Below are positions 32,264 through 41,417 of a DNA stretch of 64,000 bases, in pieces. How positions within the stretch are numbered: the stretch's first letter is position 1; every line of letters begins with the position of its first letter. The notes below the pieces were generated by a model. That model was not told where the DNA came from, did not search any database, and saw nothing but the letters and a program-made list of their open reading frames with translations. The translations under genes and the position numbers were made by a program. The stretch comes from an uncultured Microbulbifer sp. Lineage in GTDB: Bacteria; Pseudomonadota; Gammaproteobacteria; Pseudomonadales; Cellvibrionaceae. The stretch covers positions 496,001 through 560,000 of the forward strand of contig NZ_CANNGQ010000001.1 in the NCBI RefSeq assembly GCF_947504145.1, written 5' to 3'.

Positions 32264-33055
32264 ATGGCACGAGTCGCAAAGAAAAAGGCCAAAGCAAAAC
32301 GTGTTGCTAAAGCCAAACCGGCCGCCAAGGCCAACACCAGCACATCGCCGGTGGTTGCCAAGGCACAAAAGGCAGTAGATTCTGCCGCGAAAGCACTGGA
32401 TGCCCAGTTGGATCGGGTTGGTAAAGCGCGCGCACGGGTTCAGAAAACCGGGTCCGCCGCTGCCAAGAAGTCACTGACCTCTGCAAATGCCAAGTTGCGC
32501 GAGCAGCGTTTGAAGGTCGCGGAAGCCAAAGTAGGGCTGGCGAAAGCGAGTGCCATGGACGCGGTGCGTCAGGCTGAAGAATCCGCCAAGAAAACTGTTT
32601 CTGAAATGGCTGACAAGTTATCGGCAAAGGCGGATAAAGAGCTGGAAAAGGCCGTGAAAGCCTTTGAAAGCCGCTGGAAGAAAGCCCGGGCCAAGGCCGA
32701 TGTCAAAAAAGTAAAGGCTGCGGAGAAGAAAGCAACCGCCAAAGTGAAAGCGGCGGCTAAGAAGGCGGCGACCAAAGCCAAGGCGTTAGAGAAGAAGGCG
32801 GCGGCCAAAGCCAAGGCTGAAGCCAAAAAGGCAGCCAAGGCGACCAGTAAGAAAAAGGCCGTGAGAAAGTCTGCTGCGAAAAAGACGACGGCCAAAAAAG
32901 CGCCCAAAAAGTCGCCGAAGAAAGCCGCAGCCACAAAGGCGGCCACCAAAAAGGTCAAGTCGGCGCCGAAGAAGTCTGCCCGCCGGGGCCGTCCACCGAA
33001 GGCTGCCGCCAAGAAAGCCGGCGCCCGTCGCGGTCGGCCACCGAAAAAGTCCTGA
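32264..33055 (+). CDS. Histone H1-like Lys/Ala-rich protein with two C-terminal AT-hooks (AlgP-like)
   Basis: A 263-residue, extremely basic Lys/Ala-rich protein. The N-terminal 25 residues are KA-rich. Residues about 30-150 form a long alpha-helical, coiled-coil-prone segment with acidic residues ('LDAQLDRVGKARARVQKTG', 'RQAEESAKKTVSEMADKL'). The tail from about 145 is made of KKA/KAA/KKS units like eukaryotic H1 and Pseudomonas AlgP. It ends with two RGRPPK AT-hook cores at residues 241-246 and 256-261. A role in nucleoid structure or regulation is inferred. A strong GAGGAG site and its own terminator suggest a monocistronic, well-expressed gene. Confidence 0.85.
   Translation: MARVAKKKAKAKRVAKAKPAAKANTSTSPVVAKAQKAVDSAAKALDAQLDRVGKARARVQKTGSAAAKKSLTSANAKLREQRLKVAEAKVGLAKASAMDAVRQAEESAKKTVSEMADKLSAKADKELEKAVKAFESRWKKARAKADVKKVKAAEKKATAKVKAAAKKAATKAKALEKKAAAKAKAEAKKAAKATSKKKAVRKSAAKKTTAKKAPKKSPKKAAATKAATKKVKSAPKKSARRGRPPKAAAKKAGARRGRPPKKS
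32981..33052 (+). repeat. Tandem AT-hook coding repeat
   Basis: Two copies of the codons for A-R-R-G-R-P-P-K are separated by AAAKKAG. The Gly-Arg-Pro core is the minor-groove-binding AT-hook seen in HMGA proteins. Confidence 0.8.
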
Positions 33056-34103: not shown

Positions 34104-34904
34104 ATGGAAACGTTACAGATCATCATTCTTTCCCTGATCCAGGGGGTTACCGAATTTCTTCCCATTTCCAGTTCGGCACACCTTATTTTGCCAAACCAGG
34201 TACTGGGATGGCCGGATCAGGGCCTCGCTTTTGATGTGGCAGTGCATTTCGGTTCCCTGATTGCGGTGCTGGTGTATTTCCGCAAAGACGTCTGGCAGTT
34301 GATATGCGACGGCCTGGGCGGCTTTAAAACTGGGAAATTCAGCGACGAAGGCCGCCTCGCCTGGTTGATTGTGCTGGCGACTATCCCCGCCGGGCTTGTG
34401 GGCCTCGCTTTCAAAGATTTCATCGAAACGCACCTGCGTTCATCGGCGGTGATTGCTGCGACCACCATCGTGTTTGGTGCCTTGCTCTGGTGGGCCGATA
34501 TTCGCGGTGCCAGAAGGGATGATATCGGCAAGCTCGACTGGAAAAAGGCCCTGATGATCGGTGCCGCCCAGGCCATCGCCCTGATCCCCGGTACGTCGCG
34601 CTCAGGTATCACCATGACTGCAGGGTTGATGTTGGGGATGAAGCGGGAAGCCGCCGCGCGCTTCTCGTTTCTGATGTCCATCCCGGTGATTGCGCTCAGT
34701 GCGCTGCTCCTTACATTTGAGCTTCTGGATACCCACTCGGTGCCCTGGGGAAGTATATTTCTCGGTGTTGTTCTCTCTGGAATCAGTGCCTATTTGTGTA
34801 TCCATTTTTTTCTGCAATTTATCAGCCGTATCGGCATGGGGCCTTTTGCCATCTACCGCTTTCTGTTGGGCGGTGCGTTGATCTGGTTGCTGCTTGCCAA
34901 TTGA
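34104..34904 (+). CDS. uppP: Undecaprenyl-diphosphatase UppP (BacA)
   Basis: A 266-residue polytopic membrane enzyme. The catalytic motifs are 'GVTEFLPISSSAHLIL' (with the conserved Glu) and 'PGTSRSGITMTAGLMLGM' (with the conserved Arg/Ser). About seven or eight hydrophobic helices are visible. It recycles undecaprenyl pyrophosphate to the monophosphate carrier for peptidoglycan and other envelope polymers, and it confers bacitracin resistance when abundant. The start at ATG 34104 fits the METLQ family opening. Confidence 0.96.
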   Translation: METLQIIILSLIQGVTEFLPISSSAHLILPNQVLGWPDQGLAFDVAVHFGSLIAVLVYFRKDVWQLICDGLGGFKTGKFSDEGRLAWLIVLATIPAGLVGLAFKDFIETHLRSSAVIAATTIVFGALLWWADIRGARRDDIGKLDWKKALMIGAAQAIALIPGTSRSGITMTAGLMLGMKREAAARFSFLMSIPVIALSALLLTFELLDTHSVPWGSIFLGVVLSGISAYLCIHFFLQFISRIGMGPFAIYRFLLGGALIWLLLAN

Positions 34905-34985
34905 ATCGAAGGTACGTCACCGCTCATACAGAGAAGAGCGAGTATCTACCTATTGCCTGAATGCGAAACCTGAACAGGTATTTCT

Positions 34986-35882
34986 ATGACAACCACAGTG
35001 GCATTTATCGGGCTCGGCGTTATGGGTTACCCAATGGCCGGGTATCTCTCCAAAGCAGGGCATCAGGTGCAGGTGTACAACCGCACTGGCAGCCGCGCCA
35101 GTGAATGGCTGGCGTCATACACTGGCAAAGCCTTTGCGACGCCTGAGAAAGCCGCCCAGGGCGCCGATATTGTGTTCGCCTGCGTGGGCAATGACGACGA
35201 CCTGCGCGAAATAACGGCTGGTCAGGACGGCGCCTTTCACGGGATGTCTGCCGGCACTTTGTTTGTCGACCACACCACGGCTTCCGCCAATGTGGCCCGC
35301 GAACTGGCGGCAGTGGCAAAGGAGAACGGCATCGGCTTTCTGGATGCGCCTGTATCTGGCGGCCAGGCTGGCGCCGAGAACGGCGCACTGACCATCATGG
35401 TGGGGGGCGACGATGAAGACTATGCTCGTGCCCGCCCGTTACTGGATTGTTATGCCCGCGCGGTAAATCTGCTGGGTCCGGTGGGCAGTGGTCAGTTGTG
35501 CAAAATGGTCAATCAGGTTTGTATCGCAGGGCTGGTGCAGGGGCTATCGGAAGGGTTGCACTTTGCCCGTGCGGCGGGGCTGGACCCGGAGCAGGTGGTG
35601 GACGTGATTTCCAAGGGCGCTGCCCAGAGCTGGCAGATGGAGAATCGCTACAAGACGATGCTGGCTGGTGACTATGAGCACGGCTTCGCGGTGGACTGGA
35701 TGCGCAAGGATCTGGGTATTGTCCTCGATGAAGCCCAGCGCAATGGCGCACTGTTGCCGGTAACCGCGCTGGTCGATCAGTTTTACAGTGAAGTGCAGGC
35801 GCTGGGCGGCAGCCGCTGGGATACTTCCAGCCTGTTTGCACGGCTGACAAACTTGCGGGATTTTGACAAGCCTGAATCCTGA
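34986..35882 (+). CDS. 3-hydroxyisobutyrate dehydrogenase-like NAD(P)-dependent oxidoreductase
   Basis: A 298-residue beta-hydroxyacid dehydrogenase. The Rossmann motif is 'FIGLGVMGYPMAGYLSKAGHQVQVYNRT', where the NRT after strand 2 suggests NADP(H). The substrate signature 'FLDAPVSGGQAGAENGALTIMVGG' and the catalytic Lys in 'GQLCKMVNQVCIAG' are present. Family members oxidise 3-hydroxyisobutyrate, tartronate semialdehyde, glyoxylate or succinic semialdehyde. The sequence does not single out one, so no symbol is given. It is flanked by uppP and a glycosyltransferase with no operon logic I can see. Confidence 0.88.
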   Translation: MTTTVAFIGLGVMGYPMAGYLSKAGHQVQVYNRTGSRASEWLASYTGKAFATPEKAAQGADIVFACVGNDDDLREITAGQDGAFHGMSAGTLFVDHTTASANVARELAAVAKENGIGFLDAPVSGGQAGAENGALTIMVGGDDEDYARARPLLDCYARAVNLLGPVGSGQLCKMVNQVCIAGLVQGLSEGLHFARAAGLDPEQVVDVISKGAAQSWQMENRYKTMLAGDYEHGFAVDWMRKDLGIVLDEAQRNGALLPVTALVDQFYSEVQALGGSRWDTSSLFARLTNLRDFDKPES

Positions 35883-35960
35883 GCCACCATTTCGCCGGTT
35901 CTGAGGCCGGCGCCACCTCTGACTCCTCCAACCGATCAGTAAATTCATTAAGGTATTTCC

Positions 35961-37082
35961 GTGAAAGTGCTTCTGCTTTCCGCCTACGATGCCGACAGCC
36001 ACAAGCGCTGGCGGCGCGGCCTCGTGGCGGCCATTCCCGATTGGGAGTGGACCGTGCTCAGTCTGCCTCCGCGCTATTTCAGCTGGCGGGTGCGCGGCAA
36101 CAGCCTTAGCTGGGGCAGGGGGGATACCCTGGCCACCTTGCGTCAGCCATGGGATCTGATCGTCACCACTTCAATGACAGACCTCGCCTCCCTGCGCGGT
36201 TTTGTGCCGGCGCTGGGGCGGGTGCCCACGGTGGTGTATTTCCACGAGAACCAGTTCGAGTACCCGCGTACCGAGGATGCGGTGTCGTCTGTTGAACCCC
36301 AGTTATTGAATATCTACACCGCCCTGTGTGGGGACCTTTTGCTGTTCAACTCTGAGTACAACCGCAATACCCTGCTGGAAGGCGCTGAACTGCTGCTGCA
36401 CAAATTACCGGACCAGGTGCCGAAGGGTATCTGCCAGGAAATTGCAGATAAAGCCCGGGTACTACCGGTACCCCTGGAGACTGCGGCGTTCACCGGTTCG
36501 AAAAATGGTGAGGGCGAGAAAAGTCCGCGGTTGACCTTTGTCTGGAACCACCGCTGGGAACACGACAAGGGCCCGGATATCCTGCTTGCCGCCCTGCGCC
36601 GCTTCGGCCGCCAGCAGATCCCGTTCACTGTGCACGTGGTGGGGCAGCAGTTCCGCCGGCAGCCCGCAGAGTTCGCGCATATCCGCAAGTTGCTGGACAA
36701 GCTCGGGGCGCTGGGTGCCTGGGGGTACCGCGAGAGTCTGGTGGAGTATCGTCAGTTACTGGCACAGAGCCACGGGGTTATATCCACCGCGCGGCACGAT
36801 TTTCAGGGTCTGTCGGTGCTGGAAGCTGTGGCCGCAGGCTGTCAGCCCTTGGTACCGGATAATCTCGCCTACCCAGAATGGTTCGGTCGCGGCGGATGGC
36901 GCTATTCTGATGACGTGGAATCCTGTGCGGCGCAGTTGTGTAATGCCATGGTGCGCTGTGCCCAGCGGGTGCAGTCCGGCGATACGCTGGCCGTGCCGGA
37001 CATCTCCAGTATGAGTTGGGAAGTAATGGCCGGTGAGTACCGGCAGTTGTTGAGTGAATGTGCCGGTGGCCACGGAAATTGA
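35961..37082 (+). CDS. Glycosyltransferase of the tRNA-queuosine mannosyltransferase-like (DUF3524) family
   Basis: A 373-residue GT-B fold protein. The N-terminal DUF3524 region begins 'VLLLSAYDADSHKRWRRGL' and has 'FHENQFEYP' and 'DLLLFNSEYNRNTLLEG'. The GT4-like C-domain has 'FVWNHRWEHDKGPDILLAAL' and the donor-binding 'FQGLSVLEAVAAGCQPLVPD'. The eukaryotic member (GTDC1/QTMAN) transfers mannose from GDP-mannose to queuosine in tRNA-Asp. Bacterial members are named after it, mostly by homology. Location directly upstream of trpS gives mild support for a tRNA role. Donor and acceptor here are inferred. Confidence 0.82.
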   Translation: MKVLLLSAYDADSHKRWRRGLVAAIPDWEWTVLSLPPRYFSWRVRGNSLSWGRGDTLATLRQPWDLIVTTSMTDLASLRGFVPALGRVPTVVYFHENQFEYPRTEDAVSSVEPQLLNIYTALCGDLLLFNSEYNRNTLLEGAELLLHKLPDQVPKGICQEIADKARVLPVPLETAAFTGSKNGEGEKSPRLTFVWNHRWEHDKGPDILLAALRRFGRQQIPFTVHVVGQQFRRQPAEFAHIRKLLDKLGALGAWGYRESLVEYRQLLAQSHGVISTARHDFQGLSVLEAVAAGCQPLVPDNLAYPEWFGRGGWRYSDDVESCAAQLCNAMVRCAQRVQSGDTLAVPDISSMSWEVMAGEYRQLLSECAGGHGN

Positions 37083-37171
37083 CCTGGGCGTACAACCACC
37101 CTCGGGAAACGGGTATCATTCGGGTCTGATTCGCCGATTGAAGATTAGCAAGAACGGAACCTCCAGGATTT

Positions 37172-38179
37172 ATGACTAAGCAGCGCGTACTAACTGGCAT
37201 TACGACCACCGGCACACCCCACCTGGGCAATTACGTCGGCGCCATTCGCCCGGCCATTGCCGCCAGTCAGGAAGAAAATAACCAGTCTTTCTATTTTCTG
37301 GCGGATTACCACGCGCTGATCAAGTGTCAGGATCCGGAGCAGGTACACCAGTCCACTCTGGAAATTGCCGCTACCTGGCTGGCGTTGGGGCTGAACACTG
37401 ACAACGTGGTGTTTTATCGCCAGTCGGATATCGTGGAAATCCCCGAGCTTGCCTGGCTGCTGACCTGCCAGACCGCCAAGGGCCTGATGAACCGTGCCCA
37501 CGCCTACAAGGCATCGGTCGATGCCAACCGTGACGACGGGCAGGATTCGGATTTCGGCATCAACATGGGGCTCTACAGTTACCCGATTCTTATGGCTGCG
37601 GATATCCTGATGTTCAACGCCAACAAGGTACCGGTGGGCAAGGACCAGATTCAGCATATCGAGATGGCCCGGGATATCGCGGCGCGTTTCAATCATCACT
37701 ACGGCGAGCACTTTGCCTTGCCGGAGGCGGTGGTGAGTGAGCATGTTTCTGTGCTGCAGGGCCTCGATGGCCGCAAGATGAGTAAGAGTTACGGCAATAC
37801 TATTCCGCTGTTCCTGCCGGAAAAGAAACTGAAAAAACACATCAACAAGATCAAGACCAACCTGCTGGAGCCGGGCGAGCCGAAAGACCCGGATACGTCA
37901 ACGGTCTTCCAGATCTGGCAGGCATTCTCCACCCCCGAGCAGACCGCAGAAATGCGCAAGGCATTTGAAGAAGGGATCGCGTGGGGCGAAGCCAAGAAGC
38001 AGCTGTTTGAGCTGATCAATGGCCAGATTGGTGAGGCGCGTGAGCGCTATGAAGCATTGCTGGCAAACCCGGCGCAGATCGAAGTGGAGCTGGAAAAAGG
38101 TGCCGAGAAAGCGCGTGCTTACTCCCGTCCTTTCCTGGCGAAACTGCGCGAGGCCGTGGGTATCCGCAAGATCGGCTGA
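37172..38179 (+). CDS. trpS: Tryptophanyl-tRNA synthetase
   Basis: A 335-residue class Ic synthetase. The HIGH-like motif is '[13 protein letters not shown]', the KMSKS loop is '[10 protein letters not shown]', and the tryptophan pocket region '[23 protein letters not shown]' is intact. It charges tRNA-Trp. It is followed by a strong bidirectional terminator shared with the converging mscS. Confidence 0.98.
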
Positions 38180-39277: not shown

Positions 39278-39730
39278 TCAGCCCGGGTTCTGCAATCGGA
39301 TATTCAGGGCGAAGTCGGCGGTATCACCATTGGCAGCCGCGCCTTTCAGCAAGTAAACCAGCACCCGGTAGGTGCCGTCTCGCGGCAGGGTGACGGAAAA
39401 ATGTGAGCGCTGGCCGTGGCCCTTGTGCAGTGCGCGGGGCGCTGCCGGTGCGGTGATGTGATAGCCAACCTGAGTGTGGTTGCTGTGTACGTTCAGCTCG
39501 AGAGATTGGCCGGTTCTCGCGTCGATCAGGTACTCGATGGCCTGCTGACCATGGATGGTGGCGGTGACGCGTGCACTTCGGCTGTGGGGCGCGGTCTGCT
39601 CACCGGTTGGTAGGGGGTCGCTGTGGAGTTCGATTTTTTCCCGTTGCGCCTGAACGTTCTCCCTGGCGGAGATCGGCCCGCACAGGAGAAACAGCAGTGG
39701 GAGGAGTAAAAGCCAGTGAAATCTCAGCAC
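39278..39730 (-). CDS. Secreted protein resembling inhibitor of g-type lysozyme (short paralogue)
   Basis: A 150-residue exported protein with a signal peptide (residues 1-22, 'LLLLPLLFLLCGPISA'). One beta-rich domain follows, with 'IEYLIDARTGQSLELNVHSNHTQVGYHI' and the closing 'LPRDGTYRVLVYLLKGAAANGDTADF'. The ending matches the 'LPxxGxYxIxVYLxRxxARRxExADF' pattern of PliG-like proteins and of the neighbour at 40659-41417, though the ARR residues are replaced here. PliG proteins bind goose-type lysozyme in the periplasm. Function here is inferred from resemblance only. Confidence 0.6.
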   Translation of the reverse strand: MLRFHWLLLLPLLFLLCGPISARENVQAQREKIELHSDPLPTGEQTAPHSRSARVTATIHGQQAIEYLIDARTGQSLELNVHSNHTQVGYHITAPAAPRALHKGHGQRSHFSVTLPRDGTYRVLVYLLKGAAANGDTADFALNIRLQNPG

Positions 39731-39801: not shown

Positions 39802-40611
39802 TCAGTCGTCGGCAGCTTGCTCCGGCTCCCGTTTGAACCGACCGTGCTGTAGGTAGTGGATGACCTGCGCAATGACCTTCTGGTCTTTCATCATGAAAAC
39901 GTGGGTGACCGGCATTTCCAGGTGATCACGCATGCCTTCAAGGCGGGTGCGTTCCACAGTGACCTTGCCGTCATCAGTACCTGGCAGCATACGCGAGAGA
40001 ATCGGGTTGATACTCCTGGTGCCGGCAATAATACCCAGGTCAAACCGCGCGGCGCCCAGCGTATTCGGTACGCTCATTTTGCCGCTGCCCAGCTGCACGC
40101 CGGCATCGCCGTAGATAAAGTGGAACCCGGGAAAGCTCCCCAGTTTGTCGACCACTTCGCTGCCTTGATTGGGTGGGCCCAGCATCACGACTCTGCCCAG
40201 GTTTTCCACCTGCACCCGGCTCAGGTACTGGCGCACCAGAATGCCGCCCATGGAGTGGGTCACAAAATGCACCCGTGAGGTCTCTGTATCGGCGTCCGGC
40301 TCCTGCCGGGCACAGCTGTCCAGCGCCGGGGCGATCGCGGGACCTGCAAGTTTCTCGATCGGGAAGTCGGTGGATGGATAGCCCACATTGACGGCGATAA
40401 ACCCGGCTTCAGCAACCGCCTGCTCGAGCATTTTCATGGAGCTGTCGGACTTGGCCAGCCCGTGCAGGAGGATCACACAGTCCCTGGCCTGCGCCGGCAT
40501 CGCCGCCGTTGCGAGCAGCGCACAAAGAAAAGGGAGCGCAACCGCGATTCTGGTGGCCAGGGTATTTGCCCGGGCTTTTGATAAGAACTGCCTGGAGAGA
40601 TGGTTGAGCAT
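39802..40611 (-). CDS. Secreted alpha/beta-hydrolase (lipase/esterase)
   Basis: A 269-residue exported hydrolase from ATG 40611. The signal peptide ends about residue 41 (AMPAQA). The mature protein opens with the oxyanion strand 'CVILLHGLAKSDSSM'. The nucleophile elbow G-x-S-x-G-like 'HFVTHSMGGILVRQYL' holds Ser in T-H-S-M-G, with catalytic Asp/His candidates downstream ('GTDDGKVTVERTRLEGMRDHLEMPVTH'). It is similar to 'permease/lipase YdcM-like' secreted esterases. Its position between two lysozyme-inhibitor-like genes on the same strand suggests co-expression. The substrate is unknown. Confidence 0.83.
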   Translation of the reverse strand: MLNHLSRQFLSKARANTLATRIAVALPFLCALLATAAMPAQARDCVILLHGLAKSDSSMKMLEQAVAEAGFIAVNVGYPSTDFPIEKLAGPAIAPALDSCARQEPDADTETSRVHFVTHSMGGILVRQYLSRVQVENLGRVVMLGPPNQGSEVVDKLGSFPGFHFIYGDAGVQLGSGKMSVPNTLGAARFDLGIIAGTRSINPILSRMLPGTDDGKVTVERTRLEGMRDHLEMPVTHVFMMKDQKVIAQVIHYLQHGRFKREPEQAADD

Positions 40612-40658
40612 AGGCTGACTCGGTTTACGGGGAACGGTATCCCCCGATTCTAACCGTT

Positions 40659-41417
40659 TCAGCCCCCATAAATCACGGCGTCGGGGATCAGGTAATACTC
40701 CTGGCTGCCGGCGGCGAGCCACCAGTTGTCGCCCTGGCGCTGCCAGTTGAGGGGGGTGCCATCGTCCGTACTGAAGCGGTCGTTGGCGAAGTAGAGCACG
40801 CGCTGCCCATGCTCCTGCACCGGTTTACGGGTTCTGATTTCTGCCGCACCCGGCGCGCGCTTTACCTGAAACGGGCACTCACGACGAAAGCTGGGCTCGC
40901 CGGCAGAGCAAGGTAGGTTGCCGCTGGCATCATACTTCCAGGCGATACGGCCTCCACTTTTCTCCGAGCCAGAGTGGCTGCTTTTGCCGTTGTCGATGTC
41001 GACCCGCAGCTTGAAATCCGCCGACTCCTCGCGGCGCGCGGCACTGCGCATCATGTAAACCTGAATGGTGTAAGTACCGCTATCCGGCAGGGTGGTCGCA
41101 AAGCGCTCACCGCTGGTGGAACCGATAAATATCGCCGCATCCCCGGGGCCGCTGCCGGGTGCGTATACATTGAAATAGGTGGCCGTATGGGGGGTAGAGA
41201 GCTTCACCACCATGCGCTGTCCTGCTTTGGCGGTAACCTTGTAATTGACCGTGTTGTACCCGGTGATGTTGCTGGATACGGAGGTGCCGGTGGCACCCTT
41301 GGCAAATTGCAAGGTTTCAGTACGCGATTCATCGCTCCGGGCGGCGCCGCTCATGCAGACGAAGGCGAGGCAGATCAGCAGGTTTGCAAACAGGTTTGAT
41401 TGGTAAATACGCTTCAT
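40659..41417 (-). CDS. Secreted protein resembling inhibitor of g-type lysozyme, with extra C-terminal domain
   Basis: A 252-residue exported protein (signal peptide to about residue 27). The N-terminal domain (about 32-145) has the PliG-like order 'ETLQFAKGATGTSVSSNITG', 'AGQRMVVKLSTPHTATYFNVYAPG', 'AIFIGSTSGERFATTLPDSGTYTIQV' and 'MRSAARREESADF'. The C-terminal part (about 150-252) contains 'NLPCSAGEPSFRRECPFQVKRAPGAAEI' and 'VLYFANDRFSTDDGTP', a separate small domain with a Cys pair that recurs after similar modules. Its paralogue at 39278-39730 lacks this tail. Inhibition of lysozyme is a family-based inference; the domain is also found in proteins of unknown role. Confidence 0.72.
   Translation of the reverse strand: MKRIYQSNLFANLLICLAFVCMSGAARSDESRTETLQFAKGATGTSVSSNITGYNTVNYKVTAKAGQRMVVKLSTPHTATYFNVYAPGSGPGDAAIFIGSTSGERFATTLPDSGTYTIQVYMMRSAARREESADFKLRVDIDNGKSSHSGSEKSGGRIAWKYDASGNLPCSAGEPSFRRECPFQVKRAPGAAEIRTRKPVQEHGQRVLYFANDRFSTDDGTPLNWQRQGDNWWLAAGSQEYYLIPDAVIYGG

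Follow-up and report, generated by a model that had tools for sequence, protein, structure and literature searches.

The window analysed here is the whole 64,000-nucleotide stretch of DNA from an uncultured Microbulbifer sp. At 35961–37082 on its forward strand lies a glycosyltransferase gene of the QTMAN family, the family of the animal tRNA-queuosine mannosyltransferase (GTDC1). The gene is a single intact open reading frame that starts with GTG and runs for 373 codons and a stop, with no internal stops. The start is well placed, since there is an in-frame stop starting 12 nt upstream of the GTG, the motif AAGG sits 7 nt ahead of it, and relatives share the start column with the window protein when aligned; some of the relatives' called frames extend further upstream. 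When the genome (4.36 Mb, 18 contigs) was searched with the family model, one copy was found. The gene is preceded, after a gap of 78 nt, by a 3-hydroxyisobutyrate dehydrogenase-like gene (34986–35882, forward strand; NCBIfam equivalog models matched it below their cut-offs) and is followed, after 89 nt, by trpS, which encodes tryptophan--tRNA ligase (37172–38179, forward strand). A scan of 34850–37400 found no promoters or terminators, and no tRNA genes were found within the 64-kb window.

Two other places in the window may be recorded. On the forward strand, a gene for a 263-aa protein very rich in lysine and alanine (32264–33055) adjoins tsaB; the protein gave no Pfam match at E 0.001, and by eye it resembles histone H1-like proteins. 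On the reverse strand, the gene for an alpha/beta-hydrolase with a weak palmitoyl-thioesterase match (39802–40722) lies between those for two proteins (39278–39730 and 40659–41417) whose C-terminal portions, judged by eye, are similar.

The domains of the glycosyltransferase were assigned with Pfam-A. QTMAN_N (PF12038) matched residues 2–172 (35964–36476, forward strand) over positions 1–168 of the 168 in the model, scoring 181.7 bits (cut-off 25, E 1.3e-53). Two GT4-type models matched the C-terminal region, namely Glycos_transf_1 (residues 185–310; 29.6 bits, cut-off 26.4) and Glyco_trans_1_4 (residues 189–328; 29.0 bits, cut-off 27), placing the nucleotide-sugar domain at residues 185–328 (36513–36944, forward strand). 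None of the NCBIfam models names the protein, and the sole match at E 0.001 was to the GT4 model EpsE, at 20.3 bits against a cut-off of 400. The link to the family is itself already known, because Pfam names PF12038 for QTMAN.

Conservation was examined in an alignment of the window protein with 66 relatives. The loci compared comprised the window and 79 others, from the best 80 of 573 confirmed stretches (one stretch without a called frame was left out), and a filter on length and motifs removed 13 of the 79. In the N-terminal domain, S7, Y9, S13, H14, W42, R43, R45, N47, T70, S71, H95-E96-N97, F99, N130 and N134 were invariant in the 67 rows. Four of these residues belong to the HENQF motif (residues 95–99; 36243–36257, forward strand), in which Q98 was kept in 66 of 67. 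In the C-terminal domain, R198, K203, Q282, G283 and E288 were kept in all 67 members. R198 and K203 (36552–36569, forward strand) presumably form the usual GT4 donor-phosphate pair, and [D/E]280-x7-E288 (36798–36824, forward strand), with 44 members having D and 23 having E at position 280, we take to be the GT4 E-x7-E motif. The protein is not basic, its pI being 6.56 (median for the 67 members 5.95, range 5.12–8.22).

An AlphaFold2 model made from the 67-row alignment (mean pLDDT 93.3, pTM 0.92) has a GT-B fold. By structure comparison, and also by Foldseek, the closest solved folds were GT-B enzymes of the GT4 type, with Z up to 32.9; a sequence search found no solved QTMAN structure. Sucrose-phosphate synthase (6kih), MshA (3c4q), BshA (6n1x), PimB' (3oka) and SenB (8jjn) share the fold at Z 26.4–32.9 over 303–335 residues, but they are only 11–16% identical to the window protein and are without a QTMAN_N family assignment. 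These five enzymes presumably also carry the E-x7-E motif, and their acceptors are small molecules or lipids. Profile matches to solved GT4 enzymes were weak and covered the C-terminal domain only (RfaG, E 1.9e-4). From the GT-B architecture, QTMAN_N is presumed to be the acceptor-binding Rossmann domain. The earlier note had placed at this locus a bacterial homologue of QTMAN with an N-terminal DUF3524 and a GT4-like C-domain. Both the gene and its domain layout are borne out by the intact frame, the PF12038 match, the two GT4-type matches, the motifs and the GT-B model; moreover, the family model matched none of 14 control genomes. The presence of a QTMAN-family gene is thus confirmed as real and specific.

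The distribution of the family was determined in Pseudomonadota samples. QTMAN matched in 23 of the 299 genomes of the phylum sample, in 22 of them over the cut-off. The window's order, with 26 genomes in the sample, supplied 11 of the 23, and a single distant family, f32, which includes Mariprofundus, the other 12. A sample of the order gave 41 of 86. With so patchy a distribution, QTMAN is an optional trait. Judged by their titles, the relatives among the best 80 of 573 stretches are mostly marine Gammaproteobacteria, and the closest protein among them, at 77% identity, comes from a Microbulbifer MAG. Neither the 72,556 plasmid records nor the 50,697 phage records searched gave a match. Spread by mobile elements or viruses was considered and rejected on these searches; the one weak match in viral contigs (26% identity, C-domain) was taken as a generic GT4 enzyme. 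Two loci are titled as Rhodoferax and Klebsiella pneumoniae MAGs (L103, L104), and by gene order and tree their QTMAN locus groups with uncultured Gammaproteobacteria; they are probably misnamed or mis-binned contigs. Two contigs of MAG SAT230 (L074, L075) have identical QTMAN proteins and the same order of genes around them, and are likely an assembly duplicate.

We then consider the genes for queuosine (Q) and for GDP-mannose. In the window's genome, tgt and queA adjoin on one contig (C8) and queG lies on another (C2). Two ManC/GMP_PMI genes scored over the cut-off, and by this gene content the cell is judged to make GDP-mannose. For the phylum sample, pathway genes were counted in 21 QTMAN genomes, two of the 23 (G278, G192) being dropped for their fragmentary QTMAN matches. 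Each of tgt, queA and queG was over its cut-off in all 21, and ManC in 20; the remaining genome has pieces of ManC close to contig ends. In the order, tgt matched in 84 of 86 genomes, and the two without it (G343, G368) also lack QTMAN; 40 of the 41 QTMAN genomes were over the tgt cut-off, with a piece of tgt at a contig end in the other (G325). Since tgt is nearly universal in the order, the queuosine genes are a necessary condition and not a telling one. An absence of queuosine genes, which the earlier note had named as a refuting result, was thus not found, though the test is weak. In one single-contig genome with an intact QTMAN gene (G050), queA is whole, and tgt and queG each match in two adjoining pieces (C1:689572-690647 and 1782474-1783480), the second tgt piece holding a stop; this reflects either assembly indels or sequencing error, or gene decay with a real loss of Q.

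ManC was over the cut-off in 39 of 41 genomes of the order with QTMAN vs 34 of 45 without it (Fisher p 0.015). The genome-level enrichment is inflated by relatedness: when counted by family, with five mixed families dropped, the figures were 18 of 18 and 20 of 24 (p 0.12). Of the two QTMAN genomes that lack a full ManC match, one has none (G314) and the other has a fragment at a contig end (G338).

The window protein resembles animal QTMAN in its full-length QTMAN_N match, in its GT4-type C-terminal domain, with conserved motifs and fold, and in the Q and GDP-mannose genes of its cell. On this likeness we regard the gene product as probably a hexosyltransferase, most likely an alpha-mannosyltransferase, of tRNAs with Q at position 34, which would act once Q has been made. 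In that pathway Tgt places preQ1 at G34 in the tRNAs that have a GUN anticodon, and QueA and QueG complete Q. On Q34 so made, the protein would act as a soluble, retaining GT-B glycosyltransferase of the GT4 type, adding a hexose to a hydroxyl of the queuosine cyclopentenediol; the hexose would most likely be alpha-mannose, with GDP-mannose as the donor. The expected effect, extrapolated from animals, would be added bulk on Q34 at the wobble position, tuning how NAU and NAC codons are decoded. We infer the Q-tRNA as acceptor, the sugar, its linkage and which of the GUN tRNAs is used. Several observations speak against the proposal: the protein is not basic, tgt is nearly universal in the order, the ManC enrichment loses significance when families are counted, G050 has tgt and queG in pieces beside an intact QTMAN, and, as described below, some Marinobacter loci have glucosylglycerate-type genes next to QTMAN and most order genomes with tgt on the QTMAN contig have it far away.

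What is known of the animal product and enzyme fits this proposal. Passages of PMC8654956 and PMC12518689 describe the animal mannose as alpha-linked to the allylic hydroxyl of Q, and a passage of PMC4425180 describes the rat-liver enzyme as soluble and dependent on GDP-mannose. The same class of enzyme might instead act on Q with another sugar, such as glucose, galactose or some further hexose taken from a UDP donor, or at another hydroxyl, so that its product would not be manQ. GDP-mannose users were present among the fold matches of the model (the methylmannose polysaccharide mannosyltransferase, Z 28.1; PimB', Z 26.4; PimA, Z 25.4), but they were equalled or outranked by many UDP-sugar enzymes, and therefore the fold does not choose the sugar donor. 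Together with the two genomes that lack a full ManC match, this ranking speaks for another sugar; the naming of the Pfam domain for a mannosyltransferase and the presence of ManC in 39 of the 41 QTMAN genomes speak against it. As for another hydroxyl, the human enzymes left the wrong hydroxyl unglycosylated in the feeding tests reported in a passage of PMC12518689. We consider a different sugar or hydroxyl unlikely, and mannose on the animal pattern remains our preferred reading.

Gene order was compared in the 80 loci described above. The position of the gene directly before trpS had been pointed out in the earlier note as a possible coincidence. The adjacency does recur: of the 80 loci, 23 have trpS as the next gene downstream, and 26 have it within six genes. 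In the 57 loci outside the 23 the two genes are not neighbours, and where the pair occurs it belongs to a wider recurrent block with tsaB, uppP, a dehydrogenase and an M18 aminopeptidase. The observation therefore stands as a recurrent arrangement that says nothing specific, and trpS was rejected as a clue to function.

A second neighbour, tgt, lies 5.3–9.0 kb from QTMAN at 11 of the 80 loci and takes two arrangements there; tgt and queA near QTMAN were confirmed by BLAST with the window genome's own genes. In the first arrangement, tgt lies past trpS on the same strand and is preceded by queA (L061, L063, L079, L088 and L093, titled Zhongshania, Spongiibacter or Spongiibacteraceae). In the second, tgt lies on the opposite strand beyond three genes that, as we read their sequences, are presumably secF, secD and yajC (L094, L103, L104, L105, L115 and L117). 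When loci sharing at least two neighbours were grouped, 29 placements resulted, of which two were near tgt, with a chance probability of 0.009–0.023 for genomes of 4.0–2.5 Mb; a looser grouping gave 10 placements, one of them near tgt (0.05–0.08). On a quick protein tree of bacterial members only, in which 25 of 83 inner branches are open, the near-tgt state required seven changes for the 11 rows. The proximity, put to a post hoc test, is suggestive. In the order sample, tgt was on the same contig in 16 of 41 QTMAN genomes, within 13 kb in four (G318, G335, G351, G366) and 64 kb to 1.44 Mb away in the other 12. The four may overlap the lineages of the 11 loci.

The neighbourhoods also bear on two readings in which the protein has nothing to do with tRNA. 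In four Marinobacter-type loci (L026, L032, L106, L111), QTMAN is the last gene in a run of the glucosylglycerate type, made up of a HAD phosphatase of the mannosyl-3-phosphoglycerate phosphatase family, a glucosyl-3-phosphoglycerate synthase-like gene and a GH13 sucrose-phosphorylase-like gene, with a gap of about 15 nt before QTMAN in L026. The families were named from L026, and in the other three loci they were assigned by clustering. Such a run speaks for a small-molecule or compatible-solute glycosyltransferase, acting for example on glucosylglycerate, that shares its N-domain with QTMAN. Of the 23 QTMAN genomes of the phylum sample, 18 had their flanks included in the comparison of neighbours. 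Two loci without a called QTMAN frame (L036, L056) were left out. The glucosylglycerate context was present in 4 of 97 loci, some of them duplicates, and was missing from six Marinobacter loci of the same clade (L100, L109, L112, L116, L118, L121) and from the window. Moreover, the members that have this context share the invariant residues (L026 and L032 in alignment A1, L111 in A2). A solute enzyme is accordingly improbable, a little more so than a different sugar or hydroxyl. A GT4 enzyme of the envelope (LPS or exopolysaccharide) misnamed by its domain is the least likely alternative, and we hold it to be very improbable: the GT4 family is large and includes many envelope-glycan enzymes, and the sole NCBIfam match was EpsE, but that match lay far below its cut-off, the RfaG profile match was weak and confined to the C-domain, neither the scanned neighbours in the window nor the identified recurrent ones (trpS, tsaB, uppP, the dehydrogenase and the M18 peptidase, of which uppP recycles the cell-wall lipid carrier) are polysaccharide genes, and QTMAN_N was found in none of the control genomes, among them E. 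coli, which has envelope GT4 enzymes.

For the preferred reading, a hexosyltransferase of Q34-tRNA, the choice of acceptor is complicated by GluQRS (YadB), the glutamyl-Q tRNA-Asp synthetase. According to passages of PMC4425180 and PMC12710937, this enzyme likewise decorates the cyclopentenediol of Q34, in bacteria; it differs from QTMAN in being an unrelated enzyme of the synthetase type. The window's genome carries GluQRS on contig C3 (323.1 bits, cut-off 276.7). The bacterium differs from animals in having its own Q genes and a GluQRS for tRNA-Asp. Mutual exclusion of the two enzymes, as in a swap on tRNA-Asp, was looked for and not found, since each of the 11 genomes of the order that carry QTMAN in the phylum sample scored over the GluQRS cut-off. 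Of the f32 genomes, 10 have a long QTMAN match; there the top GluQRS match among those listed was an open frame of 462–577 aa. Some of these long matches pass the GluQRS cut-off, which alone does not separate GluQRS from GluRS; as the frames are of ordinary GluRS size, GluQRS seems to be absent from the 10 genomes. QTMAN thus occurs with GluQRS in the order and apparently without it in f32.

Since GluQRS decorates Q34 of tRNA-Asp, the bacterial QTMAN, if it acts on Q, must either share this tRNA or use another Q-tRNA. It would accordingly share tRNA-Asp or take another of the four GUN tRNAs. In mosquito, manQ was mapped to tRNA-Tyr, as stated in a passage of PMC11705514, so that even among animals the tRNA that serves as acceptor varies. 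The earlier note had assigned the gene to the family that glycosylates Q in eukaryotic tRNA-Asp. Its reading is partly supported: family membership is upheld by the sequence model and the GT4 active-site frame, and the Q and GDP-mannose genes are present in the genome; the carry-over of tRNA-Asp as the acceptor is doubtful, as GluQRS in the same genome speaks against it.

The literature was searched for precedents. One review denies mannosyl-Q in bacteria. Another, from 2024, implies its absence, a passage listing galQ and manQ for vertebrates and gluQ for bacteria (PMC12710937). Among the matches listed in a title and abstract search that covered few subscription papers, no report of bacterial mannosyl- or hexosyl-queuosine was found; nor, within partial literature coverage, was any paper with the term DUF3524 or PF12038. 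Glycosylated Q was absent from the passages searched in PMC9963407 and PMC11130926.

The family assignment is sound, and what it implies would be consequential: a marine bacterium may make a sugar-decorated tRNA of a kind that a review says bacteria lack. If the family works in bacteria as it does in animals, both reviews would need correction. A wider proposal, which we put forward tentatively and rate somewhat below an even chance, is that many marine Gammaproteobacteria and some relatives of Mariprofundus make hexosylated Q, which would then not be an animal invention. Where GluQRS is also present, the tRNAs might be divided between the two enzymes, with GluQ on tRNA-Asp and hexosyl-Q on tRNA-Tyr, -His or -Asn, or a single Q might carry both glutamate and sugar. 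The coexistence of QTMAN and GluQRS poses a sharp question, namely which Q-tRNA is taken by each enzyme. Should the bacterial family work like the animal one, marine species that can be cultured would hold a new bacterial tRNA nucleoside still to be found, and where the animal enzyme came from would be accessible to study.
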